This document shows, piece after piece, positions 4,217-36,139 of a stretch of 64,000 nt of DNA (positions within the stretch are counted from its first letter, which is position 1; every line of letters begins with the position of its first letter). Source of the stretch: Saccharothrix obliqua. Lineage in GTDB: Bacteria > Actinomycetota > Actinomycetes > Mycobacteriales > Pseudonocardiaceae. Made by a program: the position numbers and the translations under genes. Location of the stretch: assembly GCF_019375475.1 (NCBI RefSeq), contig NZ_JAHXGQ010000001.1, positions 248,001 through 312,000 of the forward strand, in the 5' to 3' direction. A model generated the notes under the pieces. The model was not told the origin of the DNA, did not search any database, and saw only the letters and a program-made list of their open reading frames with translations.

Positions 4217-5680
4217 ATGAACCACGACGTCCCACCAGGTGGACGTATATCCGGATTCCGGCTCGCCCGCCTCCTCGGCGAGTGGCGTCGTCGCGGCGCC
4301 CGCCAGGGCTCGGCGGACCTGGCCGCCGCCATCCGGATGCTCGTCCTCGACGGCCGCCTGCCCGCCGGCACCCGCCTGCCCGCCGAGCGCGAGCTGGCCG
4401 AGGCGTTGCCCGTGAGCCGGACCATGATCACGGCGGCGCTCGACCAGTTGCGGGCCGAGGGGCTGGTGGCCAGCAAGCGGGGCGCCGGGACGTGGATCAG
4501 CCTGCCCGCCGGCGGGTCGCTCGGGATCGTGCCGGACACCCCGCTGGTCGGGCACAGCATGGTCGACTTCGCCCGCGCCGCGCCGCCCGCCGTGCCCGGG
4601 GTGCCCGCCGCGTTCGACCGCGTGCGGCGGCGGTTGCCGGAGCAGCTCGCCAACCACGGTTACTACGAGCACGGGTTGCCCGACCTGCGGCGACGCATCG
4701 CCGCCCGGTACGAGGCGCGTGGGTTGCCCACGTCGCCCGACCAGATCGTGGTGACCAGCGGGGCGCAGCACGCGTTGGCGTTGGCGTTGCGGTTGCTCAC
4801 CGGGCCCGGCGACCGGGTGCTGGTGGAGCAGCCCAGTTACCCCAACGCGCTGGACGCGATCAAGGCGGTGTCCGCCATACCCGTGCCCGTGGCCATGACC
4901 GAGACCGGCTGGGACCTGCCCGGGATGGCCGCGGCGTTCCGCCAGGCCGCGCCGCGCATGGCGTACCTGGTGCTGGACTTCCAGAACCCGACCGCCCACC
5001 GGTTGGCCGCCGAGGGGCGGGCGGAACTCGCCGACCTGGCCCGCCGTGCCCGCACGCCGTTGGTCGTGGACGAGACCGTGGTGGAGCTGGACTTGGACGG
5101 GGACCCCCTCGACGGGCCGCCGCCGATGGCGTCGTTCGCGGAGGACCTGGTGATTACGCTGGGTTCGGCGAGCAAGGCGTACTGGGGTGGGTTGCGGATC
5201 GGCTGGATCCGGGCGTCGACCGAGGTCGTGCACCGGCTCGTGTCGACCCGGACGGCGCTCGACCTCGGGTCGGCGGTGTTCGAGCAGATGGTGTTGGCGG
5301 ACCTGATGGCGGACCCCGACGCGGTGCTGGCCGAGCGGCGGGCCCTGCTGGCGGCGCAGCGGGACGTGTTGATGGCGGGGCTGCGCGAGCACTGCCCCCG
5401 GTGGGACTTCCGCCGGCCCGCGGGTGGGTTGAGCGTGTGGTGCGAGTTGGACGCGCCGATCAGCACGCGGGTGGCCGTGGTGGCGCAGAACCACGGGGTG
5501 CGGTTGGCGCCCGGGTCGAGGTTCGGCGCGCACGGCGGGTTCGAGCGTTGGCTGCGGCTGCCGTACGTGCTGCCGGCGGAGGTGCTGAAGGAGGCCGTGC
5601 GCCGGCTGGGCCTGGTCGCCGAATCCGTCGCCGGCACCGCCGTGACCACGGAAACCGACGCCACCATGCCCGTCGCCTAA
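4217..5680 (+). CDS. MocR-type (GntR-aminotransferase fusion) regulator
   Basis: 487 residues. An N-terminal GntR winged helix (about 30-95, LPAERELAEALPVSRTMI and GLVASKRGAG) is joined to a fold-type I aminotransferase domain. PLP features are present: GAQHALALAL, DFQNPTAH, VDET, and the Schiff-base lysine K320 in LGSASKAYWGGLRIGW. MocR proteins sense PLP or PLP-ligand complexes and usually control a neighbouring gene. Here that is the divergent yczE-like gene, so this is probably a YczR orthologue. There is no sign of PdxS/PdxT genes nearby, which argues against PdxR. Confidence 0.85.
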   Translation: MNHDVPPGGRISGFRLARLLGEWRRRGARQGSADLAAAIRMLVLDGRLPAGTRLPAERELAEALPVSRTMITAALDQLRAEGLVASKRGAGTWISLPAGGSLGIVPDTPLVGHSMVDFARAAPPAVPGVPAAFDRVRRRLPEQLANHGYYEHGLPDLRRRIAARYEARGLPTSPDQIVVTSGAQHALALALRLLTGPGDRVLVEQPSYPNALDAIKAVSAIPVPVAMTETGWDLPGMAAAFRQAAPRMAYLVLDFQNPTAHRLAAEGRAELADLARRARTPLVVDETVVELDLDGDPLDGPPPMASFAEDLVITLGSASKAYWGGLRIGWIRASTEVVHRLVSTRTALDLGSAVFEQMVLADLMADPDAVLAERRALLAAQRDVLMAGLREHCPRWDFRRPAGGLSVWCELDAPISTRVAVVAQNHGVRLAPGSRFGAHGGFERWLRLPYVLPAEVLKEAVRRLGLVAESVAGTAVTTETDATMPVA

Positions 5681-25606: not shown

Positions 25607-26272
25607 ATGCCGAACCTCCCCAGCACCGAAGAGCTGCGCAAGGCGGGCGAGCAGGTCGTCGCCGCCGCGCGCACGCCGCTGCTCGCCGCCCTCGGCGCGG
25701 GCGACCTGGCCGCGAAGGCCGTGGTCGACGCGCTGAACAAGACCAGGGAGCGCGCGGAGGCGGCCCGGACCGCCGCCGAGTCGACCGACCTCAAGGACCT
25801 CAAGGAGCGGTTCGACCCGGCCGAGCTGCGCAAGGTCGTGGACGCCTACACCCAGTCCGCGCTGAACCTCTACCAGTACCTCGCCGAGCACGGCCAGGAG
25901 GCGTTGGACCGGCTCAAGAGCCAGCCGCAGCTCCAGAAGGCGCTCAGCCAGGTGGAGGAGGCCGTCGAGACCGCGCAGAAGCGCACCGAGGCCGCCGCCT
26001 CGGACGCCCGCGACCTCGCCGACGACGTGCTCGGCAAGGTGAGCCGCCGCACCCGCTCGGTGGGCGAGAAGGTCGCGCACGAGGTGGACCGGGCGAGCGA
26101 CCGGCTGGCCGAGACCGTCTCCGAGGCCGGCGACGACGTGGCGCACGAGGTCCGCAGCACCAGCCGCAAGGCCGCGAACCGCACGTCGGCGGCCCGGTCC
26201 GCGCCGACCACGCGCAAGCCCGCCGCACCGCGGCCGACGGCCGCGAAGAAGCCGGCCGACCCCGCCGAGTGA
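25607..26272 (+). CDS. HbhA-like coiled-coil protein with basic tail
   Basis: 221 residues. It starts with PSTEELRKAGEQVVAAAR and a long helical coiled-coil rich in Ala/Glu/Lys, then a C-terminal Lys/Arg/Pro/Ala region with TTRKPAAPRP and KKPAD. This is the layout of heparin-binding haemagglutinin HbhA (Rv0475). In mycobacteria the Lys-rich tail binds heparan sulfate; in a non-pathogen, roles in envelope organisation or lipid bodies are more likely. The ATG at 25607 with GAGGAG is preferred to the GTG overlapping the upstream stop. Confidence 0.82.
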   Translation: MPNLPSTEELRKAGEQVVAAARTPLLAALGAGDLAAKAVVDALNKTRERAEAARTAAESTDLKDLKERFDPAELRKVVDAYTQSALNLYQYLAEHGQEALDRLKSQPQLQKALSQVEEAVETAQKRTEAAASDARDLADDVLGKVSRRTRSVGEKVAHEVDRASDRLAETVSEAGDDVAHEVRSTSRKAANRTSAARSAPTTRKPAAPRPTAAKKPADPAE

Positions 26273-26352
26273 GCGCACCGCCACGGGGCGTCCTGCCCGG
26301 GACGTCCCGTTTCGGCTGTACCCCGGGCGCGCACCGCACGTAGGCTGGGCGC

Positions 26353-26676
26353 GTGTCCCCCTTCCAGTTCCCGGCCCTGGACCTGATCTTCCTCGACGCG
26401 TGGATCATGCTCCTGGCGTACTACGCCGGGCTGATCCTGGGCGTTTTCGCGTTCGTCCACGCCCTCACCCAGCGCGCGGACGCCTACACCGCGGCCGAAC
26501 GGCTCACCAAGCCCGCGTGGCTCGGCATCACCGGCGGCGGCGCGTTCGCGCTGCTGCTGTTCAGCCTCAACGGCCCCGGCGCGATGTTCTGGTTGGCCGG
26601 CCTGGTCGCCGTGCTGGTCTACCTGGTGGACGTGCGCCCGCGGCTGATCGAAGTGCAGCGCGGCCCGCGTTGGTGA
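26353..26676 (+). CDS. DUF2516 membrane protein (Rv0476-like)
   Basis: 107 residues with three hydrophobic segments: IMLLAYYAGLILGVFAFVHAL, then WLGITGGGAFALLLFSL, and AMFWLAGLVAVLVYLVDV. It ends with VRPRLIEVQRG, typical of DUF2516. The function is unknown. Conserved position after hbhA supports orthology with Rv0476. It starts with GTG, and its stop overlaps the hydrolase start (GTGA). Confidence 0.88.
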   Translation: MSPFQFPALDLIFLDAWIMLLAYYAGLILGVFAFVHALTQRADAYTAAERLTKPAWLGITGGGAFALLLFSLNGPGAMFWLAGLVAVLVYLVDVRPRLIEVQRGPRW

Positions 26677-27332
26677 CGCACCGGGCCTACGGCTCGGGCA
26701 CACCGGTCACCCTCGTCGGGCACGGCCTGGGCGCGACACCCGGCGAGATGCGCCTGCCGACCACCGGCCTGCGCGGCACCAAGGTCGTCGTCACGCTGCC
26801 GTCGCACGGCGACGAGCCGGACGCGCCCGCCGGGTACTGGACCTACCGCCGGATCGCCGCCGACCTGCGCCGGGTCGCCCGCGAGGTGGGCGCGACGCAG
26901 GCCGTCGGCGTGTCGCTGACGGCGGGCGCGCTGCTGGCGCTGCTCGCCGAGGAGCCGGACGCGTTCGAGCGGGTCGCCCTGCTGCTGCCGGCCGTGCTGG
27001 ACGAGCCGCGCCGGCTGCTCGCCCGCGAGTACGCGATCAACGTCGTCGGCGGCCCGCCCGAGTACCAGGAGCAGCGGCGGCGGGCGTTCGACCGGTTGGG
27101 TGGCGCGCTCGCCGAGCTGCCCGGCCAGGTCGCGGTGCCCGACCGGGCGCTGCTCCGGGCCGTGCGCGTGCCGGTGCTGGTGGTGGGCGCGACGCGGGAC
27201 CCGCTGCACCCGCGCGAGGTGGCCGAGGCCGCGGCTGCCGCGCTGCCCGCGGGCCGGCTGGAGCTGGTGCCGTCCTGGTTGACCCATCGGGGTGACGTGC
27301 GTCGGTGGTTGGGCGATTTCCTCGGCGGGTAG
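26673..27332 (+). CDS. alpha/beta hydrolase
   Basis: 219 residues. Family features are the oxyanion region VTLVGHGLGA, nucleophile elbow GVSLTAG (Ser within GxSxxG), acid in VLVVGATRDPLHP, and a candidate His in the final SWLTHRG. The substrate is unknown. The GTG at 26673 overlaps the DUF2516 stop, so the two are coupled. This compact hydrolase lacks a lid domain, consistent with a small esterase or thioesterase. Confidence 0.8.
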   Translation: MTHRAYGSGTPVTLVGHGLGATPGEMRLPTTGLRGTKVVVTLPSHGDEPDAPAGYWTYRRIAADLRRVAREVGATQAVGVSLTAGALLALLAEEPDAFERVALLLPAVLDEPRRLLAREYAINVVGGPPEYQEQRRRAFDRLGGALAELPGQVAVPDRALLRAVRVPVLVVGATRDPLHPREVAEAAAAALPAGRLELVPSWLTHRGDVRRWLGDFLGG

Positions 27333-27341
27333 CCGAGGTGC

Positions 27342-27887
27342 ATGGCCGAACAGAAGAAGATCGCATTCCTGGTCGACACGGAGGGGATCGAGCAGGTCGA
27401 GCTGACCGACCCCTGGCAGCACGTCGAGAAGGCGGGCGCGGTCCCCAGGCTGCTCGCGCCGAAGCTCGGGCAGGTGCAGGGGTTCGACCACCTGACACCC
27501 GCCGACAAGTTCGACGTGGACGTGCCGTTCGCGCACGCGGACCCGGCCGACTACGACGGGATCGTCATCCCGGGCGGTGTGGCGAACGCCGACTTCCTGC
27601 GCATGGACCGCGACGCGGTGGCGTTCGTGAAGGCGCACGTCGCGGCCGGCAAGCCGGTCGCCTCCATCTGCCACGGCCCGTGGCTGCTGGTGGAGGCCGA
27701 CGTGGTGCGGGGCAAGATGCTGACCTCGTTCCCGAGCCTCGCCACCGACATCCGCAACGCGGGCGGCGACTGGGCGGACGTGGAGGTGCGCACCTGCGAC
27801 CACCACGGTTGGACCCTGGTGACCAGCCGCAACCCCGACGACCTGCCCGCGTTCAACCGCGAGGCGCTCAAGGCGTTCGGGCTGTAG
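27342..27887 (+). CDS. DJ-1/PfpI family protein (YraA/YhbO-like)
   Basis: 181 residues with the class I glutamine-amidotransferase-like fold. It has catalytic-type Cys in ASICHGPWLLVEAD, the acidic partner in DTEGIEQVEL, and IVIPGGVANADFLR. PfpI-like members are reported as proteases, or as deglycases/glyoxalases protecting against methylglyoxal. Length and motifs fit YraA/YhbO. It starts 10 bases after the hydrolase gene and is followed by a clean terminator. Confidence 0.88.
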   Translation: MAEQKKIAFLVDTEGIEQVELTDPWQHVEKAGAVPRLLAPKLGQVQGFDHLTPADKFDVDVPFAHADPADYDGIVIPGGVANADFLRMDRDAVAFVKAHVAAGKPVASICHGPWLLVEADVVRGKMLTSFPSLATDIRNAGGDWADVEVRTCDHHGWTLVTSRNPDDLPAFNREALKAFGL

Positions 27888-27897
27888 CCCGGGTGGG

Positions 27898-27925
27898 CCC
27901 GCGGGGATGTGCACCTCCCCGCGGG
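27898..27925. terminator. bidirectional terminator
   Basis: CCCGCGGGG (27898-27906) pairs perfectly with CCCCGCGGG (27917-27925) and is followed by TTT. It serves the PfpI gene and the convergent MerR gene, whose stop begins 3 bases further on. Confidence 0.8.
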
Positions 27926-27927
27926 TT

Positions 27928-28689
27928 TCACAGCCGCGCGTCCGCGTAGGCCGCGATGGCGTCGCGAACCCACTCCGCCAAGCCCTCGGCGTGGGCGTCG
28001 AACTGCACCTTGAAGTCCGGTGCGTCCACGTACAGCCGGCCCAGGCCCGTGTACGACTCGCGGTCTGGGGTCCAGCTCCGGCAGATCCACCGGTAGTGCC
28101 GCTCGGTCACGTCCAGCGCCTCCGGCGCGCCCGGCGCGACACCCGCGTCGAACAACGCGCCCATCGCCTCGGCGACCGCGTGCCACTCCGCCATGAACTC
28201 CTCGGCGTCCGGCTTCGTCCACCCGCTCATCCGGCGCTTGCTCTCCGCGACGTGCTCACGCACGCCCTCGCCGTAGCGCTGCACGAGTTCGTCCTCGTAC
28301 CGCGCCTGCCGGTCGGCGTCGAAGCCGTCGAACAACTCCTCGACCCGCATCCCCTGCTCACCTCCCTCCAGTTCCCGAACGGTCCGGGCGACGGTTTCCG
28401 CCAGCACGTCCAGCCGCTCCCGCTCCGCCCGCAGCCACCGCTCGTGGTTGCGCAGCACGTCCACCTCGCGCCGCCGGCCGTCCAGGACGCGGGCCACCGT
28501 GTCCAGGTCCAGGCCGAGGTCGCGCAGCAGCAGGATCCGCTGGAGCCGCAACAGCTGCTCCCGCTCGTAGTAGCGGTAGCCGTTGCCGCCGATCCACGCG
28601 GGCGGCAGCAGGCCGATGGCGTCGTAGTGCCGCAGCGTCCGCGACGTCACCTTGGACATCCGCGCGACCTGCGCGATCGACCAGGCCAT
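27928..28689 (-). CDS. MerR-family regulator with TipAS-like effector domain
   Basis: 253 residues. The N-terminal MerR winged helix is WSIAQVARMSKVTSRTLRHYDAIGLLPPAW, followed by the YRYYEREQLLRLQRILLLRDLGLDLDTVARVLD coiled-coil. The C-terminal ~110 residues match the TipAS antibiotic-recognition domain (DADRQARYEDELVQRYGEG, VAESKRRMSGW, GLGRLYVDAPDF). TipA-type proteins activate transcription on binding thiopeptides. A GGAGGTGA Shine-Dalgarno precedes the ATG. A dyad of the MerR kind lies 36-56 bp upstream. Confidence 0.92.
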   Translation of the reverse strand: MAWSIAQVARMSKVTSRTLRHYDAIGLLPPAWIGGNGYRYYEREQLLRLQRILLLRDLGLDLDTVARVLDGRRREVDVLRNHERWLRAERERLDVLAETVARTVRELEGGEQGMRVEELFDGFDADRQARYEDELVQRYGEGVREHVAESKRRMSGWTKPDAEEFMAEWHAVAEAMGALFDAGVAPGAPEALDVTERHYRWICRSWTPDRESYTGLGRLYVDAPDFKVQFDAHAEGLAEWVRDAIAAYADARL

Positions 28690-28724
28690 GCCCCGTCACC
28701 TCCTCGTGCCGACCACGCTAGGGG

Positions 28725-28745
28725 TTGACGTGACGTCAACGTCAA
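28725..28745. promoter_or_regulatory. MerR-type operator
   Basis: TTGACGT (28725-28731) and ACGTCAA (28739-28745) form a dyad with a 7-bp spacer, enclosing a nested TGACGTCA. MerR regulators bind such dyads between -35 and -10 boxes. The site lies between the MerR gene and the divergent deacylase gene and may serve both. Confidence 0.65.
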
Positions 28746-28768
28746 GGCGAGCCGGCAGGATGTGCGGC

Positions 28769-29317
28769 GTGTGGACCATCGCCGGAACCCTGCGCCCCGT
28801 GCCCGCCGCCGACCGGCTCGACCTGGTGCCCCCACCGGTCGCCGCCGCGCTGGGCGCCCTCACCGACGCCGACCGGGTCTCCGTCGTGGAGATCGACGCC
28901 GCGCTCGCCGACACGGCGGAGTTCTGCGCGCATTACGGCGTGCCGGTGGAGGCGTCCGCGAACTGCGTGATCGTCGCCGGCAAGCGGGGTGACGCGGTGC
29001 GGTACGCGGCGTGCGTCGTGCTGGCCACCACCCGCGCCGACGTGAACGGCGTGGTGCGCAAGCGGCTGGAGGCGCGGCGCGCGTCGTTCGCGCCGATGGA
29101 CGAGGCCGTCGCCCGCACCGGCATGGAGTACGGCGGCATCACGCCGATCGGGCTGCCCGCCGACTGGCCGGTGCTGCTCGCGCCCGAGGTCGCCGCCGCG
29201 CCGGAGCTGGTGATCGGCAGCGGTGTCCGGGGCAGCAAGCTGCTGGTGCCCGGCGCCGTGCTGGCGAAGCTGCCCGGCGCGGAGGTGCTCGACGGCCTCG
29301 GCCGCGCGATCGGCTGA
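28769..29317 (+). CDS. YbaK/ProX-type aminoacyl-tRNA deacylase-like protein
   Basis: About 182 residues. It matches the YbaK/EbsC fold: PVEASANCVIVAGKRGDAVRYAACVVLATTRADVNGVVRKRL with the conserved Lys in VAGKR, and GMEYGGITPIGLP. The family hydrolyses mischarged aminoacyl-tRNAs in trans. The GTG at 28769 (AGGA 8 nt upstream) is used; an ATG at 28760 is equally possible. It diverges from the MerR gene, and its stop abuts the convergent LOG-family gene. Confidence 0.8.
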   Translation: MWTIAGTLRPVPAADRLDLVPPPVAAALGALTDADRVSVVEIDAALADTAEFCAHYGVPVEASANCVIVAGKRGDAVRYAACVVLATTRADVNGVVRKRLEARRASFAPMDEAVARTGMEYGGITPIGLPADWPVLLAPEVAAAPELVIGSGVRGSKLLVPGAVLAKLPGAEVLDGLGRAIG

Positions 29318-30394
29318 TCAGGCCGTCGTGCGCGCGTAGTCGCCGAGGAACGCCACGGCCTCGGCGACGTCGTCGGTGACCAGGATCCAGCGCTCCGCCT
29401 CGCGGCCACGCGCCAGGCGGCGCACCAGCGGCGCGGCGGGCACCTCGTCCACCCAGAAGTCGGTGCCCAGGAACACCATCGGCGCGGCCGGACCGACCGA
29501 GCCGTAGTGGTTCTGGGTGTAGTCCTGGAACACCTCCTGCACGGTGCCCGCGCTGCCCGGCGTGTAGACGATGCCGCCCGTGGCGACGGTGAGCAGGCCG
29601 TCCTCGCGGACCGAGTTGGCGAAATACTTGGCGTGCCGCTCGCACGCCGGGTTCGGCGGCTCGTGGCCGTAGAACCAGGTGGGGATGCCGATCGTGCGCG
29701 GCTTGTCGAAACCGGGCAGGTCGGCGGGGAACGCCGCGAGCCACCGGCCGACGGACTCGGCGTCGTGGCCGAACGCGGGCACCCGCGCGACGTCGCGCAG
29801 CACCTCCCGGTCCACCCCGACCCGCACGCCCAGCGGCACCGCCTCCATCGCACCCGGACCGCCGCCGGTGAGCACGGTGAACCCCGCGTCGCCCAGGGCC
29901 GCGCCCAGCTCGACGGCCCGCCGGTAGCCCGCGGTGTCGCGGCCCAGCGCGTGCCCGCCCATGACGGCGACCGGCGTGCCGGTCAGCACCTCGGCCAGGG
30001 CTTCGGTGATCGCGTGGTCGTGCAGCCGCTCGGCCAGCGCGTGCAGCGGGTCCGGGTGGTGGCCCTGCTGCCTGGTGTGCCGGTAGATCCGGGCGTCCGG
30101 GGTGTCCGCGTACGACGCGGGCCGGGCGGGGTCGAACCCCGCGAACAGCTCCGCCGGGGTGTAGAGCGACGACCGGTACACCCGGTAGGGGACGTCGGGG
30201 ATGTTGGGGAACACCAACGCGCCCGCCGCGTCCGCGCGGCGCTGCCCGGTGGCCGAGAGGGCGCACCCGAGGAACACCGCGCCGTCCAACGGCACCCGCA
30301 ACTCCTCGCCGCTCAGGTCGAGTCCGACGAGGACCGCGCCACGCAGGTCGGTGGCGGCGCGGAACTGCTCCGGGTCCGTGATCTCGGTGCGCAC
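29318..30394 (-). CDS. LOG/Rossmann-fold nucleotide-binding family protein
   Basis: 358 residues. A C-terminal lysine-decarboxylase-like Rossmann domain carries GGHALGRD, LTGGGPGAMEA, and TPGSAGTVQEVFQ, a variant of the PGGxGTxxE motif of cytokinin phosphoribohydrolases (LOG). The N-terminal ~110 residues are a separate region (LDGAVFLGCALS and ALVFPNIPDVPYRVYRSSLY). It may cleave nucleoside monophosphates to free base and ribose phosphate, but this long subtype is not assigned. It starts with GTG at 30394. Convergent with the deacylase gene without a gap. Confidence 0.8.
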   Translation of the reverse strand: MRTEITDPEQFRAATDLRGAVLVGLDLSGEELRVPLDGAVFLGCALSATGQRRADAAGALVFPNIPDVPYRVYRSSLYTPAELFAGFDPARPASYADTPDARIYRHTRQQGHHPDPLHALAERLHDHAITEALAEVLTGTPVAVMGGHALGRDTAGYRRAVELGAALGDAGFTVLTGGGPGAMEAVPLGVRVGVDREVLRDVARVPAFGHDAESVGRWLAAFPADLPGFDKPRTIGIPTWFYGHEPPNPACERHAKYFANSVREDGLLTVATGGIVYTPGSAGTVQEVFQDYTQNHYGSVGPAAPMVFLGTDFWVDEVPAAPLVRRLARGREAERWILVTDDVAEAVAFLGDYARTTA

Positions 30395-30669
30395 GGGCGA
30401 AGCCTACGTCGACGCGGTCGGTGCTTCGGCGGTGCTCCGGGGGCGCTCGCGCAGCGCTCCGGCGGCACCGGTCGGAGGCTTCGGGGCGCTGTGGGCGGTG
30501 CTTCGGCGGTGCTCGCGCTGGGCCGGCGGCGCGCTGCGGGGGTGTTCGGGCGGCGCTCCCGGCCGGGCGCGTTGATCGCGGGTGTGGTCGAGGTTCCGGT
30601 GGTGTGGCGGGGATGCGGTGTGCCGTGCGGGGATCGGGACGGGTCCGTTGCCCGAACGGGACGGGTTCC
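30395..30669. other. intergenic, no gene seen
   Basis: GC-rich spacer between the LOG gene and the RiPP promoter. It contains irregular repeats of the form CTTCGGCGGTGCT and GGCGGCGCT. No start with a Shine-Dalgarno and no conserved motif was found. Confidence 0.5.
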
Positions 30670-30699
30670 TTGACCGCGTCGTCGGCCCGGAACTAACAC
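30670..30699 (+). promoter_or_regulatory. putative promoter of the RiPP locus
   Basis: TTGACC (30670-30675) and TAACAC (30694-30699) are separated by 18 bp, about 45 bp before the precursor gene. A small dyad CCGTT-N5-AACGG (30645-30659) lies just upstream and could be an operator. Confidence 0.5.
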
Positions 30700-30742
30700 T
30701 GGGAGAGCACCATTCCCGCCCGTTCGAGGAAAGGGGAAGGCC

Positions 30743-30820
30743 ATGTCGCTCGTGCGTCTGGTCAAGCGCGTCATGCCGCGGCGGAGCCTGAAGGCGTACG
30801 CCTGGTACGGCTGGCTCTGA
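30743..30820 (+). CDS. atropopeptide (tryptorubin-type) RiPP precursor
   Basis: 25 codons from ATG 30743 to TGA, with a strong Shine-Dalgarno (AAGGGGAAGG). The N-terminal 19 residues are a basic leader (VRLVKRVMPRR, then SLKAY). The C-terminus is AWYGWL, an aromatic hexapeptide of the form AWYxWx, like the tryptorubin A core AWYIWY. In that family a single P450 crosslinks Trp and Tyr side chains and backbone, then the leader is removed. Here W21, Y22 and W24 are the expected crosslink sites. The P450 gene lies 71 bp downstream. No separate protease, transporter or tailoring gene is adjacent. Confidence 0.88.
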   Translation: MSLVRLVKRVMPRRSLKAYAWYGWL

Positions 30821-30840
30821 CGGACATCTCCACCGAATCC

Positions 30841-30870
30841 CCGCGCCGCCGGCGGAAACCGGCGGCGCGG
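30841..30870 (+). terminator. attenuator-like hairpin between precursor and P450
   Basis: CCGCGCCGCCGG (30841-30852) pairs perfectly with CCGGCGGCGCGG (30859-30870) across a 6-nt loop. It lies 20 bp after the precursor stop. Such hairpins often protect the precursor mRNA and reduce read-through to the enzyme, giving excess precursor over P450. Confidence 0.65.
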
Positions 30871-30891
30871 GCCGGCCGGACGGGGGACGAA

Positions 30892-31932
30892 ATGGCACGC
30901 ACCGGGGAGAAAACCCGGCGGACGGTGTTCGCGCCGCGCATCGCGGAGCTTTTCCGGGCGCACCGGGGCGAACCGCTGTTCCGCCTCGAACCGGACACCA
31001 TCGGCGTCGCGGGGCCCGACCTGATGGACGCGCTCCTGCGCGCCCGGCCCGCCAACGCCGAGGAGCGGCCCACGTTCAAACCCGTGCTGGGCCGCCACGT
31101 CACGCGTGCCGAGTCGGCCGCGCTCATGCGCGCCGTCGGCGCCGACGTCCGCGCCGCGCTGGGCACACCGCCCACACCGGACCCGGCCGCGCTGGTCGGC
31201 CGGTGGCCGGGCGTGGCCCACAACTACCTGCGGGACCTGGTGTTCGGCCGGGAGCACCGCCGGTTCCGGGTCCTCGTGGACCGCCGGCTCGAACTCACCC
31301 CGAAGATCACCTGGGCCGCGGTCACCACGGGCGCGGCGATGCTGTGGCGACCGGGCTCCGGCCCGACGTCCCACCTCGCGTCGCTGGTGCTCGACGCGGA
31401 CAACTTCCCCGACCGGCGGTTCGCGATGTACCTGTACCGCCGGGTTGCCGCGCCGGTGTGCTTCACGGTCGCGGCGCTCGTCACCAACGCGTTGTGGCTC
31501 GGTGCGCCGTTCGACGACGACACCCCGAACCGGCACCTGATCGACGAGGCGCTGCGCCTGCTGCCACCGTCCTGGAACATCCTGCGCGTCGCGTCACCGG
31601 AGTTCGGCGCGGTGGACCGGCGGATCGGGGCGGCCGACGACGTGCTGCTGCTGCCGCTGCTCAGCCACCGCGACCCGGCGCTGTGGGACGACCCGGACGG
31701 GTTCCGGCCGGAGCGCTGGCGCGGGCTCGACCCCGACCACGCGCCCGGCTACCTCCCGTTCGGCCACGTCCGCGAGCGCTGCTGGGGCCGCAACATGGTG
31801 CTGCCGCTGGCCGAGCACCTGCTGGACGCGGTGCGCCGCGGCGGACTCACCGTCGACCCGCGCCAGACCACCGGCCGGGTGCCGCTGGACGGCCTGCTGG
31901 AGGTGGCGGACGTCCGGGTGGTCCGGCGCTAG
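30892..31932 (+). CDS. short divergent cytochrome P450, RiPP-crosslinking
   Basis: 346 residues, against about 400 for typical actinomycete P450s. The heme site is FGHVRERCWG with thiolate C297; the usual Gly (FGxG) and the His/Arg two before Cys are Val and Glu. K-helix E219-ALR-R222 and FRPERW are present. The I-helix region (AALVTNALWLGAP) lacks the normal acid-alcohol (D/E)T pair. Together with the upstream AWYGWL precursor this fits the P450s that make biaryl and C-N bonds in atropopeptides. The ATG at 30892 follows GGGGGA. Its stop overlaps the purU stop (CTAG). Confidence 0.88.
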   Translation: MARTGEKTRRTVFAPRIAELFRAHRGEPLFRLEPDTIGVAGPDLMDALLRARPANAEERPTFKPVLGRHVTRAESAALMRAVGADVRAALGTPPTPDPAALVGRWPGVAHNYLRDLVFGREHRRFRVLVDRRLELTPKITWAAVTTGAAMLWRPGSGPTSHLASLVLDADNFPDRRFAMYLYRRVAAPVCFTVAALVTNALWLGAPFDDDTPNRHLIDEALRLLPPSWNILRVASPEFGAVDRRIGAADDVLLLPLLSHRDPALWDDPDGFRPERWRGLDPDHAPGYLPFGHVRERCWGRNMVLPLAEHLLDAVRRGGLTVDPRQTTGRVPLDGLLEVADVRVVRR

Positions 31933-32810
31933 AAGATGACGGTCCGGTTGCCGTGCACCAGCACCCGGTCCTCCAGGTGCCACCGCAGACCACGCGCCAG
32001 CACCACCTTCTCGATGTCGCGGCCCTTGCGCACCATGTCCGGGATCGAGTCGCCGTGGTCCACCCGGATCACGTCCTGCTCGACGATCGGGCCCTGGTCC
32101 AGGTCGGCCGTCACGTAGTGGCACGTCGCGCCGACCAGCTTCACGCCCCGCCCGTGCGCCTGGTGGTAGGGCCGCGCGCCGACGAACGACGGCAGGAAGC
32201 TGTGGTGGATGTTCAACGCCCGGCCCGCCCAGTCCGCGCACAGCTCGGTCGGCAGGATCTGCATGAAGCGCGCCAGCACCACGGCGTGCGGCCGGTGCGC
32301 GTCCACGAGCTGCCGCAGCTGCGCGAACGCCGCCAGCCGCCCCTCCGGGTCGTTGGCCGGGAACGGCACGTGGTGGAACGGGATGCCGTGCGCCCGCGTG
32401 ATGTCCGCCAGGTCGGCGTGGTTGCCGATCACGGCGGGCACGTCCACGTCCAGCTCGCGCGAGGCGACCCGGCCCAGCAGGTCGTACAGGCAGTGCCCCT
32501 CCTTGGACACCAGCAACACCACCCGCCGCCGCTCGCCGGTGTCGGTGACCCGCCAGTTGGCCTGCGCGCCCAGCTCGCGCGCCACCAGCCCGAACCGCGC
32601 CCGCAGTTCGTCCACGCCGAACGGCAGCGAGTCGGCACGCACCTCCTGGCGGGTGAAGAACCAGTTCGTCGCCGGGTCGGTGTGGTAGGCCGCCTCCACG
32701 ATCCAACCGCCGTGCTCGGCCAGGAACGAGGAGATCCGGGCCACGATGCCGGTGCGGTCCGGGCAACCGAAGGTGATCACGTAGCGGCGTTCAGGCTGGG
32801 GCACGGCCAC
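31929..32810 (-). CDS. purU: formyltetrahydrofolate deformylase
   Basis: 293 residues. An N-terminal ACT domain (YVITFGCPDRTGIVARISSFLAEHGGWI) is followed by a formyltransferase-type catalytic domain, with VIGNHADL, RFMQILP, LNIHHSFLPSFVGARPYHQAHGRGVKLVGATCHYVT and DLDQGPIVEQDV. PurU hydrolyses 10-formyl-THF to formate and THF, balancing one-carbon pools and feeding purine synthesis. It is convergent with the P450 gene, with stops overlapping. The MDMPI-family gene ends 6 bp away from its start. Confidence 0.95.
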   Translation of the reverse strand: MAVPQPERRYVITFGCPDRTGIVARISSFLAEHGGWIVEAAYHTDPATNWFFTRQEVRADSLPFGVDELRARFGLVARELGAQANWRVTDTGERRRVVLLVSKEGHCLYDLLGRVASRELDVDVPAVIGNHADLADITRAHGIPFHHVPFPANDPEGRLAAFAQLRQLVDAHRPHAVVLARFMQILPTELCADWAGRALNIHHSFLPSFVGARPYHQAHGRGVKLVGATCHYVTADLDQGPIVEQDVIRVDHGDSIPDMVRKGRDIEKVVLARGLRWHLEDRVLVHGNRTVIF

Positions 32811-32816
32811 GAGTAT

Positions 32817-33536
32817 CTACGGTCGGGGCAACGCGTCGAGCAGCGACCTGTCGCCGGCGACGTCCACACCGCTCGGCCGACCCCACGCGGCCCGGTACAA
32901 CGCGTCCGCCGTGCCCGTCACGGTGACGTCCGCGCCGTTCGCCGCCGGGACGACCCGGGGTGCTTCGCCCGGTGTGACGTGCAGCTCCCACACCCGGTCC
33001 ACGTCGGTGGCGTGCCACCGCAGCCGCCCGGCCCTGGTGACCGGCTTGCGCTGCGTCGCGCGCACCACCAGCCGGGTCAGGAACTCGTCCACGCCGTCGG
33101 CCGCGAACTCCGGGTCGTAGAGCGGGTCCGGTACCGCGGTGTCCGGGCGGGCGTGTTCGGCGTCCAGGCGGTGGATGGCGATCTCGTGCGCCTGCCGCCG
33201 GGCCCAGAAGGCGGCGGTGCGTGGTCCGACGAACGTCCACGCGGGTGTGTCGGGCGTGGCCGCGGTGAGCGCGCCGTGCAGCTCGGCGAAGCGGGCGTCC
33301 CACCACGCCAGCACGTCGTCCCACCCGTCGGGCGGCGCCGGGGCGGGTGGGCGTTCGCCGTCGGGTGGCGTGCGCAACGCGGCCAGCGCCCACGAGTGCA
33401 CGGAGGCCAGGTGGCGCACCAGGTCACGCACGTCCCAGCCGGGGCAGGTGGGCACCGGCGCACCGGGCCCGGCGGCCGTCGCGGCGGCCCGCAGCGCCCG
33501 GTACTGGAGATCCGCTTGGTCGAGGAAGTACCGCAC
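32817..33536 (-). CDS. maleylpyruvate isomerase (MDMPI) family protein
   Basis: 239 residues. The N-terminal DinB-like four-helix bundle of the mycothiol-dependent family has VPTCPGWDVRDLVRHLASVHSWA, then WARRQAHEIAIHRLDAE with the metal-type histidines. The C-terminal MDMPI domain follows (VWELHVTP and VTGTADALYRAAWGR). Members use mycothiol as cofactor, which fits mshA in the same window; the substrate is usually unknown. It lies 6 bp upstream of purU on the same strand, so the two are probably co-transcribed. Confidence 0.85.
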   Translation of the reverse strand: MRYFLDQADLQYRALRAAATAAGPGAPVPTCPGWDVRDLVRHLASVHSWALAALRTPPDGERPPAPAPPDGWDDVLAWWDARFAELHGALTAATPDTPAWTFVGPRTAAFWARRQAHEIAIHRLDAEHARPDTAVPDPLYDPEFAADGVDEFLTRLVVRATQRKPVTRAGRLRWHATDVDRVWELHVTPGEAPRVVPAANGADVTVTGTADALYRAAWGRPSGVDVAGDRSLLDALPRP

Positions 33537-33544
33537 TCGGCCAG

Positions 33545-33744
33545 CCTAGGGCTTGTTCTCGCCGGATGTGGTCGGTCTTTCCCGCGCCGGCGGGGGTCCT
33601 GGAGGCTGCGGCCCCGCGAAACTTTCAGGGAGCCTGCCTGATAGTTGGCGCCCTGCCGCTAGGCGGCGAGGGAGCCCTGCCTGAGCGCTGTCCTCCCGCG
33701 CCGGCGGGGGCGGGTCGCGCTTCGGTTTGAGGACACGCCCTAGG
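33545..33744. mobile_element. MITE-like element of about 200 bp
   Basis: Terminal inverted repeats CCTAGGGCTTGTTCTC (33545-33560) and GAGGACACGCCCTAGG (33729-33744) match at 14 of 16 positions. Both ends carry CTAG, which could be target sequence. Inside, a 17-bp direct repeat TCCCGCGCCGGCGGGGG occurs near each end, and the related GGAGCCTGCCTGA / GGAGCCCTGCCTGA occur between them. There is no ORF. The form suggests a non-autonomous relative of an IS5-like transposon. Its right CTAG supplies the TAG stop of the methyltransferase gene. Confidence 0.55.
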
Positions 33745-34546
33745 GTCGCACCGAGTCCCACGGCACCGTGAGTTCGCCCAACCGCCACCGCCGCCGGTCG
33801 TCCAGGACGGGCCAGCGCTCGGACAGCAACGCCGCCGCCTCCACCCACCGGGCACGCGGGCCGTACGGCGCGAACGTCGCCGCCGTCGCCCAGCACGCGT
33901 CCAACTCGGCGAGCAGGGCGTGCACGCGCTCACCCGGCACGTTGCGGTGGATCAACGCCTTCGGCAGGCGCTCCGCCAGATCACCCGGCGTCTCCAGGTC
34001 GGCGGGCAGGCAGGACAGGGTCAACGTGCGCGGCCCGTCCTCGGCGGTCAGCGCGACCCACGCGCAGCGGCGTCCGATCTCGTCGCACGTGCCCTCCACC
34101 AGCACACCACCGGGCGCGAGCCGGCCGAGCATCGTGGTCCACGCCTCGTTCGCCTGCTCCTCGGTGTACTGGCGCAGCACGTTGAACGCGCGCAGCAGCA
34201 CCGGGCGGCGACCGGCCAGCTCGAAACCGCCGCGGCGGAACTCCAGGCGGGGCGGGTCGGCGACGGCCGCGCCCGCCGCGACCCGCTCCGGGTCCAGCTC
34301 CAGGCCGAGCACGCGCAGGTCCGGGCGCAGCGGTCGGAGGCGGTCCGCCAGCTCGACCGTGGTGACCGGCGACGAGCCGTAGCCGAGGTCGACCACCAGC
34401 GGGTCGGCGGTGTCGCGCAGCAGGTCGCCGCACGCGTGCGCCACCCACCGGTCGACCCGGCGGAGGCGGTTCGGGTTCGTGGTGCCCCTGGTCGGCAGGC
34501 CGAGCGCGCGGGCCCGGCCGGCCGCTAGGCGTGGCGCGCGAGCCAT
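33740..34546 (-). CDS. class I SAM-dependent methyltransferase
   Basis: 268 residues. A Rossmann SAM motif LVVDLGYGSSPVTTVELA is followed by acidic LGLELDPERV, then FNVLRQYTEEQA and LAPGGVLVEGTCDEIGRR. Only class membership can be stated. The gene starts inside the DUF2505 gene (22-bp overlap) and runs with it, a pair often seen upstream of murB in actinobacteria. The last codon and stop (CCC TAG) lie in the end of the MITE-like element. Confidence 0.8.
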   Translation of the reverse strand: MARAPRLAAGRARALGLPTRGTTNPNRLRRVDRWVAHACGDLLRDTADPLVVDLGYGSSPVTTVELADRLRPLRPDLRVLGLELDPERVAAGAAVADPPRLEFRRGGFELAGRRPVLLRAFNVLRQYTEEQANEAWTTMLGRLAPGGVLVEGTCDEIGRRCAWVALTAEDGPRTLTLSCLPADLETPGDLAERLPKALIHRNVPGERVHALLAELDACWATAATFAPYGPRARWVEAAALLSERWPVLDDRRRWRLGELTVPWDSVRP

Positions 34547-35022
34547 TCGGCGGTGAACCCGGTCTCCTCGTCCAGCAGCCGCGCCACCTGCTCCGCGACC
34601 ATCTTCTCCAGCTTGCCGCCGAGCAGCGGGACACCCACCTTGACCTGACCCGCGAGGGTGAGGGTGCTCCCACCACCGGGCGCGTCGGCGAGCGTGATCG
34701 TGCCGTCCAGGCGGCCCGGCACGCCGGTCAGCACCACCTCGACGGTGCCCGTGAACCCGGCCTCGGTCCAGCTCTCGGCGCGGTCGACCACCAGGTCGCC
34801 ACCGAGCACACCGCGCACCGCCTGCGGCAGCTTGTCCGCCGGCACGCCCTGCCTGAGCTGGTAGGACGTCGTGCCGCCGGTGGTGGTGAACGCCACCAGC
34901 GCCGCGCCGGCCCCGCCCATGGCCGCGAGCCGGTCCCGGAGGAAGGTCTCGTCGACGAGGGCGGCGTACACGTCCGACGCCGGCCGCGGGGACGTCGTCT
35001 GGTGCTCGATGCGGCGTGCCAT
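34525..35022 (-). CDS. DUF2505 (START/SRPBCC-like) protein
   Basis: 165 residues. It starts ARRIEHQTTSPRPASDVYAALVDETFLRDRLAAMGG and ends with VKVGVPLLGGKLEKMVAEQVARLLDEE, both typical of DUF2505. The fold is START/Bet v1-like and probably binds a hydrophobic ligand. It resembles Rv0481c, which likewise lies just before murB. It diverges from murB with only 25 bp between start codons. Confidence 0.85.
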   Translation of the reverse strand: MARRIEHQTTSPRPASDVYAALVDETFLRDRLAAMGGAGAALVAFTTTGGTTSYQLRQGVPADKLPQAVRGVLGGDLVVDRAESWTEAGFTGTVEVVLTGVPGRLDGTITLADAPGGGSTLTLAGQVKVGVPLLGGKLEKMVAEQVARLLDEETGFTAEWLARHA

Positions 35023-35047
35023 GGCGCGAAGGCTACCGTTGGCGGTC

Positions 35048-36139
35048 GTGACCACCCCGCTGTCCAGTGCCCGAGCGCGTGCCCACGTGCCGCTGGCCGA
35101 GCGCACCACGCTGCGGCTCGGTGGGCCCGCGGCGCGGTTCGTCCGCGCCACCACCTCCGCCGAACTCGTCGACGCCGTGCGCGCGCTCGACGTGGCGGGC
35201 GAACCCCTCCTGCTGCTCGGCGGCGGCTCCAACCTCGTGGTGGGCGACGCCGGTTTCCCGGGCACCGCCGTGCAGGTGGCGACCCGCGGCCGGCGGCTCG
35301 ACCCGCTCGGCGACGGCCTCGTGCAGCTGACCGTCGAGGCGGGCGAGGACTGGGACGCCGTGGTCGCCGAGGCCGTGTCGCAGGGCCTGGGCGGGTTGGA
35401 GTGCCTGTCCGGCATACCCGGCCAGGTCGGCGCGACACCGGTGCAGAACGTCGGCGCGTACGGCGTGGAGGTCGCGCAGGTGCTCACGTCGGTCGACCTG
35501 CTGGACCGCCGCACGGGCCGCGTGCACCAGCGGCCCGCCGAGGCGCTGGGCCTGGCCTACCGCACGAGTGTGCTGAAGGGCACGGACCACGCGGTGGTGC
35601 TGCGTGCCCGGTACGCGTTGACCTCCGGCGGGCAGTCCGCGCCCATCCGGTACGCCGAGCTGGCACGCGTCCTCGGCGTCGCGCACGGCGACCGCGTGCC
35701 CGCCGACGCGGCGCGGCAGGCCGTGCTGGAACTGCGGCGCGGCAAGGGGATGGTGCTCGACGCGGCCGACCACGACACGTGGAGCGCGGGTTCCTTCTTC
35801 ACCAACCCGGTGCTGGACGACTCGACGCTGACCGGTGTCCTGATCCGGATCGCGGAACGGCTCGGCAGGCACGTCGACGTGCCGACCTACCCGGCGGGTC
35901 CGGGGCAGCGCAAGCTGTCCGCCGCGTGGCTGATCGAACGCGCCGGCTTCACCCGCGGCCACCGGGGTCCCGGCGGGCGGGTCGCGTTGTCCGGCAAGCA
36001 CACCCTGGCCCTGACCAACCGCGGCGGCGCGTCCACCGAGGACCTGCTGGACCTGGCGCGCGAAGTGCGCGACGGGGTGCGCGCGGCGTTCGGCGTGGAG
36101 CTGCGGCCCGAGCCGGTGCTGGTGGGGTGCGAGATCTGA
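35048..36139 (+). CDS. murB: UDP-N-acetylenolpyruvoylglucosamine reductase
   Basis: 363 residues. The FAD-binding domain has TTLRLGGPAARFV and LLLGGGSNLVV, then GLGGLECLSGIPGQVGATPVQNVGAYG. The C-terminal substrate domain has AGSFFTNPV with the proton-donor Ser, and KLSAAWLIERAGF. It reduces UDP-GlcNAc-enolpyruvate to UDP-MurNAc with NADPH, the second committed step of peptidoglycan precursor synthesis. A GTG start at 35048 is used. The genomic position equals Rv0482. Confidence 0.96.
   Translation: MTTPLSSARARAHVPLAERTTLRLGGPAARFVRATTSAELVDAVRALDVAGEPLLLLGGGSNLVVGDAGFPGTAVQVATRGRRLDPLGDGLVQLTVEAGEDWDAVVAEAVSQGLGGLECLSGIPGQVGATPVQNVGAYGVEVAQVLTSVDLLDRRTGRVHQRPAEALGLAYRTSVLKGTDHAVVLRARYALTSGGQSAPIRYAELARVLGVAHGDRVPADAARQAVLELRRGKGMVLDAADHDTWSAGSFFTNPVLDDSTLTGVLIRIAERLGRHVDVPTYPAGPGQRKLSAAWLIERAGFTRGHRGPGGRVALSGKHTLALTNRGGASTEDLLDLAREVRDGVRAAFGVELRPEPVLVGCEI

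Follow-up and report, generated by a model that had tools for sequence, protein, structure and literature searches.

The locus described here raises a simple question: does a gene of 25 codons, followed by a cytochrome P450 gene within the window (the whole stretch of 64,000 nucleotides that was analysed), belong to a system for making a cross-linked peptide, and is its core, AWYGWL, out of the ordinary? The AWYGWL locus is a genuine but ordinary member of a known cross-linked peptide family; the hairpin in the spacer between its two genes is the more interesting side result and the part most worth following. The elements of the cassette are:

30726..30740, + strand: purine-rich Shine-Dalgarno stretch of the precursor gene, GAGGAAAGGGGAAGG, directly 5' of the ATG
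30743..30820, + strand: precursor peptide gene, 25 aa plus stop; NF038372 (tryptorubin_fam) 40.2 bits, cut-off 33
30840..30871, + strand: intercistronic hairpin, perfect 13-bp GC-rich stem, loop of 6
30892..31932, + strand: atropopeptide-class cytochrome P450 gene, 346 aa; heme-ligand loop FGHVRERCWGR, Cys297

The product of the precursor ORF (30743-30820), as translated, is MSLVRLVKRVMPRRSLKAYAWYGWL. Its leader ends in RRSLKAY and carries the motif RSLK at residues 14-17, and the core AWYGWL occupies residues 20-25. NF038372 exceeds its cut-off both against the protein and, with 37.6 bits, in a genome scan; the precursor site is its single match in the 8.04-Mb genome, and none of 14 control genomes has a match. 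The preliminary description of a 25-codon gene with a Shine-Dalgarno sequence, in which AWYGWL follows a leader ending in SLKAY, is borne out by the ORF, the purine-rich stretch and NF038372 alike; the range it assigned to the locus, 30670..31932, does contain both genes but begins 73 bases 5' of the precursor ATG. An unusual base composition of the cassette was considered and rejected (GC 0.73-0.75, within the local range of 0.70-0.80 across 26000-36000).

An atropopeptide is defined by a P450 of the class, a leader motif of the KSLK type (RSLK being a listed variant) and Trp at core position 2 (PMC11450843, available text). The locus has RSLK in its leader and Trp as the second residue of AWYGWL, and its P450 is assigned to the class by identity and by the tree, in which it shares a clade with SvaB (support 100/100), in place of the AtropoFinder classifier. 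An xWxxWx core with a KSLK-type motif, here AWYGWL after RSLK, also places it in the bitryptide subgroup. Judged from its sequence, the locus is very probably a minimal two-gene atropopeptide operon; the tryptorubin-type layout of precursor and P450 that had been proposed for it is supported by the precursor profile, the leader motif, the P450 tree and the conserved order of the genes. To a family in which more than 650 loci have been mined (PMC11450843, available text), AWYGWL adds a core not found in print: in the literature text available for searching, AWYGWL, AWYGW, WYGWI and WYGWL led to no atropopeptide paper, and the one match was an insect peptide study.

A spacer of 71 bases separates precursor and P450 genes, and no alternative P450 start (ATG, GTG or TTG) lies between the upstream in-frame stop and 30892. 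The enzyme had been called short; its 346 aa fall within the family length of 338-369 aa (30 loci, first start codon taken), and a truncated P450 was rejected on this ground and on that of an AlphaFold model with a mean pLDDT of 87.4. The top PDB matches of this model in Foldseek are P450s, with modest TMq values of 0.45-0.59 among the 50 matches listed, and the Pfam P450 model matches residues 216-302 only. The textbook heme loop of P450s follows the pattern FxxGxRxCxG. In 37 aligned atropopeptide P450s, Glu stands at the place of the textbook Arg (residues 290-300 of the window P450), and all of them share E-R-C-W around the heme Cys; the P450 of an Embleya locus (L125) reads ERCR at this Cys. 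The textbook helix I pattern is AGxxT; the helix I segment of the window P450 reads APVCFT (residues 187-192) and lies within a modelled helix, 172-204, with a block pLDDT of 91-96. P188, C190, F191 and T192 are likewise common to all 37 aligned P450s, and the acid-alcohol pair of the textbook helix is absent from the window P450 and its aligned relatives.

The position of the enzyme was defined by a P450 tree of 98 rows, obtained from 110 loci by dropping ten identical P450s together with L051 and L110. The window P450 lies in a clade of 36 rows, and its sister comprises 21 rows, including named Amycolatopsis species (support 99/93). The Streptomyces varsoviensis P450, located by the published sva coordinates (NZ_JOBF01000044.1), falls inside the same 36-row clade, with a branch that is rather long. 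In another tree, which has 58 rows and includes sequences from Embleya (TWFIWYS) and Streptomyces clavuligerus (AWYIWW), the clade is recovered (25 rows, 100/100) and both of these lie outside it. The phylogenetic comparison suggested earlier as a check thus places the window enzyme within the atropopeptide P450s, in the varsorubin clade, with the tryptorubin-type enzymes in another clade.

Within the 36-row clade, core residue 6 is always aliphatic (I in 33 rows, L in 2, V in 1) and residue 4 is nearly always Gly (G 34, Q 1, N 1). AWYGWI is the common core (32 of 36 rows), and AWYGWL is one I-to-L change away from it. Outside the clade, residue 6 is Tyr in 56 of 62 rows; Gly4 cores occur there twice as well (L005, L008), two cores end in Ile, and the WYGW label requires five changes on the 98-row tree, a pattern in the sequences that argues against a clean clade rule for Gly4 and aliphatic residue 6. 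An AWYGW core with an aliphatic end is a trait of the clade, found in 34 of 36 members, and not an oddity. Gly4 and Leu6 had been said to make the product unlike AWYIWY; the difference stands, but the implied novelty was overstated, Gly4 and an aliphatic residue 6 being normal for the clade.

What the cassette makes can be proposed by analogy with characterised relatives, which are the basis for inferring that crosslinks form, how many there are, and that proteolysis follows. The 25-aa precursor would be translated and its basic leader, with RSLK, would dock on the P450, which would oxidatively crosslink the aromatic side chains of AWYGWL; proteases encoded elsewhere would cut off the leader, perhaps together with Ala1. 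Varsorubin B1 (core SWYQWL) is a three-bridged product with a structure solved by NMR, its bonds being Trp-Trp C-C, Trp-Tyr C-N and Trp-backbone C-N (PMC11450843, available text). The likeliest bonds in AWYGWL would be those of varsorubin B1, namely Trp2-Trp5 C-C, Trp2-Tyr3 C-N and a Trp5-backbone C-N closure, and on this analogy we lean towards a three-bridge product. A mass shift of minus 2 H per crosslink had been predicted; this does not hold for varsorubin B1, in which three new bonds lower the mass by only 4 H relative to the linear peptide (PMC11450843, available text).

Apart from the additional ether bridge of laurentirubin, residue 6 is the one core position that takes no part in the bicyclic ring system (PMC11450843, available text), so the lack of an aromatic residue there is expected to be harmless. 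The enzyme that turns SWYQWL into a three-bridged product belongs to the same clade; a missing third aromatic is therefore clade-typical, and the rings are not expected to be affected. The view that they can form without it, already taken in the preliminary description, agrees with the three-bridged product of a core that ends in Leu. As for position 4, ScaB still cyclised its own core when any of nine out of ten residues was placed there (all but Arg; Gly was outside the set), and it also cyclises XamA2 (WEGYISY), which has Gly at that place, forming one bridge according to the mass (PMC12352619, available text); at least one enzyme of the family thus tolerates Gly4. The available text of PMC11450843 and PMC12352619 yielded no WYGW product.

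Within the same family, the P450 might instead install a single Trp-Trp bridge, giving a scabrirubin-like monocycle (WYGW, WYGWL or AWYGWL minus 2 H). Of 15 precursors given to ScaB, 13 received one bridge, XamA2 with its fourth-place Gly among them (PMC12352619, available text), and varsorubin B2a, a product of SvaB, likewise has a single bridge, so that two bridge patterns arise from one core; SvaB makes the three-bridged product too, however (PMC11450843, available text), and the window P450 sits in the varsorubin clade, apart from the Embleya L125 enzyme with its scabrirubin-type core TWFIWYS. We regard the monocycle as rather unlikely. For the three-bridged product, which is preferred, the exact bridge set is extrapolated, given the single bridge of ScaB and the two patterns of the varsorubin enzyme.

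The varsorubin locus sva of S. varsoviensis resembles that of the window in its two genes, its final Leu and its spacer hairpin; its P450 is 67% identical to the window P450 and shares its 36-row clade, and its core differs in having Ser rather than Ala at position 1 and Gln rather than Gly at position 4. The computed masses of linear AWYGWL and linear WYQWL are equal. AWYGWI loci (Amycolatopsis, Streptomyces, Kitasatospora and Nocardia) share the gene order and the core except for Ile in place of Leu at position 6, with P450s 64-76% identical to that of the window; no product of these loci was found in the available text of PMC11450843 or PMC12352619. The tryptorubin A and amyxirubin (clavorubin) loci (AWYIWY, AWYIWW) have a precursor of the same family, the same leader motif and a P450 of the same class, but their P450s belong to another clade, and their cores have Ile4 and an aromatic residue 6. 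Scabrirubin (TWFIWYS, Embleya scabrispora), of the same RiPP family, carries a single C-N bridge and is trimmed from both termini (PMC11450843, available text). Its core was read here in another Embleya (L125), whose P450 is 59% identical to the window P450 and lies in the other clade, and whose spacer has a hairpin as in the window.

The distribution of cores was examined in two samples. An NF038372 match is present in 31 of 390 genomes from the same family, and in 30 of these it is above the cut-off. The cores of these 30 loci (window included) are AWYGWI in 21 and AWYLWY in 2, with AWYGWL, AWYGWY, AWYQWI, AWYGWD, AWYNWI, AWYIWW and AWYLWI occurring once each. When the 390 genomes were searched for a DNA pattern encoding AWYGW, then Leu or Phe, with TRR (stops, also TGG) after it, only the genome of the window gave a match. 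One genome of the sample (G136) shows a single TGA inside its NF038372 match. For the second sample, named species genomes were scanned with a 13-row P450 profile, and the best 80 of 128 were used. A KSLK-type precursor, recognised by sequence pattern, lies just upstream of the P450 in 79 of these best 80, so the conservation of the precursor, which had been proposed as a check, holds. AWYGWL is absent from the cores of these 79, and the identity of the window P450 to those of the 19 loci ranked best is 67-76%. The eightieth relative (L051, Amycolatopsis echigonensis) has a precursor frame at 4825-4902 in which TGA replaces the codon for core Trp2; its P450 frame stays open. A chance small ORF in the window was rejected in view of the above-cut-off NF038372 score, the single genome match, the empty control genomes and the upstream precursors of the P450 relatives.

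The cassette lies between two genes:

29318..30394, strand opposite to the cassette: gene weakly matching the SLOG family, at 26.9 bits (cut-off 26.3)
31929..32810, convergent to the P450 gene: gene matching formyl transferase, which we take to be purU-like

The 3' end of the P450 gene shares 4 bases with the purU-like gene. The SLOG-type and purU-like genes are found on one contig and in the same order in all 25 genomes of the genus, and all 24 congeners have both without the cassette. The two matches lie 1537 bases apart here, 28-364 in 20 congeners and 1011-1196 in the other 4 (L114-L117, from G009, G019, G001 and G013), where the gap holds an unrelated lipoprotein-like frame, judged by eye and shorter in L117. 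NF038372 matches one of the 25 genomes, and a search of the 24 congeners with the P450 gave nothing at E 1e-20; a tblastn search for cassette remnants with P450 and precursor in 9 of the 24 congener gaps gave only chance-level matches (E 0.2 or more). In the 25-genome sample the cassette is lineage-specific, most simply a gain.

Its presence in one of 25 genomes, and the stop in the core of one relative (L051), would also suit a decayed or silent cassette with no product. No sigma-70-like promoter was found in 30400-31000, which carries little weight since shuffles gave none either. Decay or silence is nevertheless very unlikely: both frames are open, and nothing is lost from the Shine-Dalgarno stretch, RSLK, the aromatic core residues, EALR or the heme-ligand loop. 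That the locus belongs to a different family of P450-modified RiPPs, of the biarylitide or aminopyruvatide type, is scarcely conceivable and was rejected: ApyO (NF050147) is the best NCBIfam match of the P450, but its 68.5 bits cover residues 215-323 only and fall far below the cut-off of 525 bits, the varsorubin enzyme scores similarly low (57.8 bits), and the precursor is of the 25-aa tryptorubin type, not the five-residue precursor of biarylitides (PMC13417212, available text).

In the two-gene atropopeptide operon, which remains the preferred reading, the spacer stands out. A helix of at least 9 bp is present in the precursor-P450 spacer of 87 of 98 loci; among the controls, the stretch preceding the precursor has one in 16 of the 98, and two equal-length P450 coding stretches have one in 13 and 12. 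The mean folding z over the 98 loci is -3.18 for the spacer and -0.5, -0.16 and 0.27 for the controls. Ordinary co-directional spacers of 45-170 bases reach 9 bp in 5 of 27 cases (two stretches, one S. clavuligerus plasmid). In the 36-row clade, 34 members have the hairpin, and L035 and L037 are two of the 11 loci without it. Its position is conserved family-wide; the stem letters vary widely between groups. For the nearest relatives, 23 spacers were aligned; under their predicted consensus fold, pairing holds in 242 of 253 cells, and two-sided changes occur in 5 of 11 stem pairs, one of them well populated (C-G 11, T-A 8, G-C 2) and four from single rows; these counts are not independent because the 23 rows are related.

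An ordinary intrinsic terminator was rejected: a terminator scan of 30400-31000 found none, and a T-rich tail (at least 4 T in the next 8 bases) follows in 6 of the 87 loci with the helix. A known Rfam element was likewise rejected, with none in 30400-32000 up to E 0.1. The words hairpin, terminator and intergenic are absent from the main text of PMC11450843 and PMC12352619, and no literature joining stem-loop, intergenic, precursor peptide, P450 and RiPP was found. The hairpin probably holds P450 output below precursor output, and may do so by attenuation or transcript stabilisation, with the precursor in excess. Such a limit would fit the report that a ribosome-binding site added before the P450 raised varsorubin yield 100-fold (PMC11450843, available text), and would offer a practical handle on production. 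A bolder reading, that the Gly4 and aliphatic-6 clade makes a distinct scaffold, its flexible Gly4 allowing a bridge pattern unseen with a bulky residue 4, and that the hairpin governs the precursor-to-P450 ratio family-wide, is unlikely. On a plasmid of S. clavuligerus, the AWYIWW cassette (L124, 1287-1370) has a precursor that is missing from the record's incomplete gene table; the P450 is present in 16 S. clavuligerus plasmid records.
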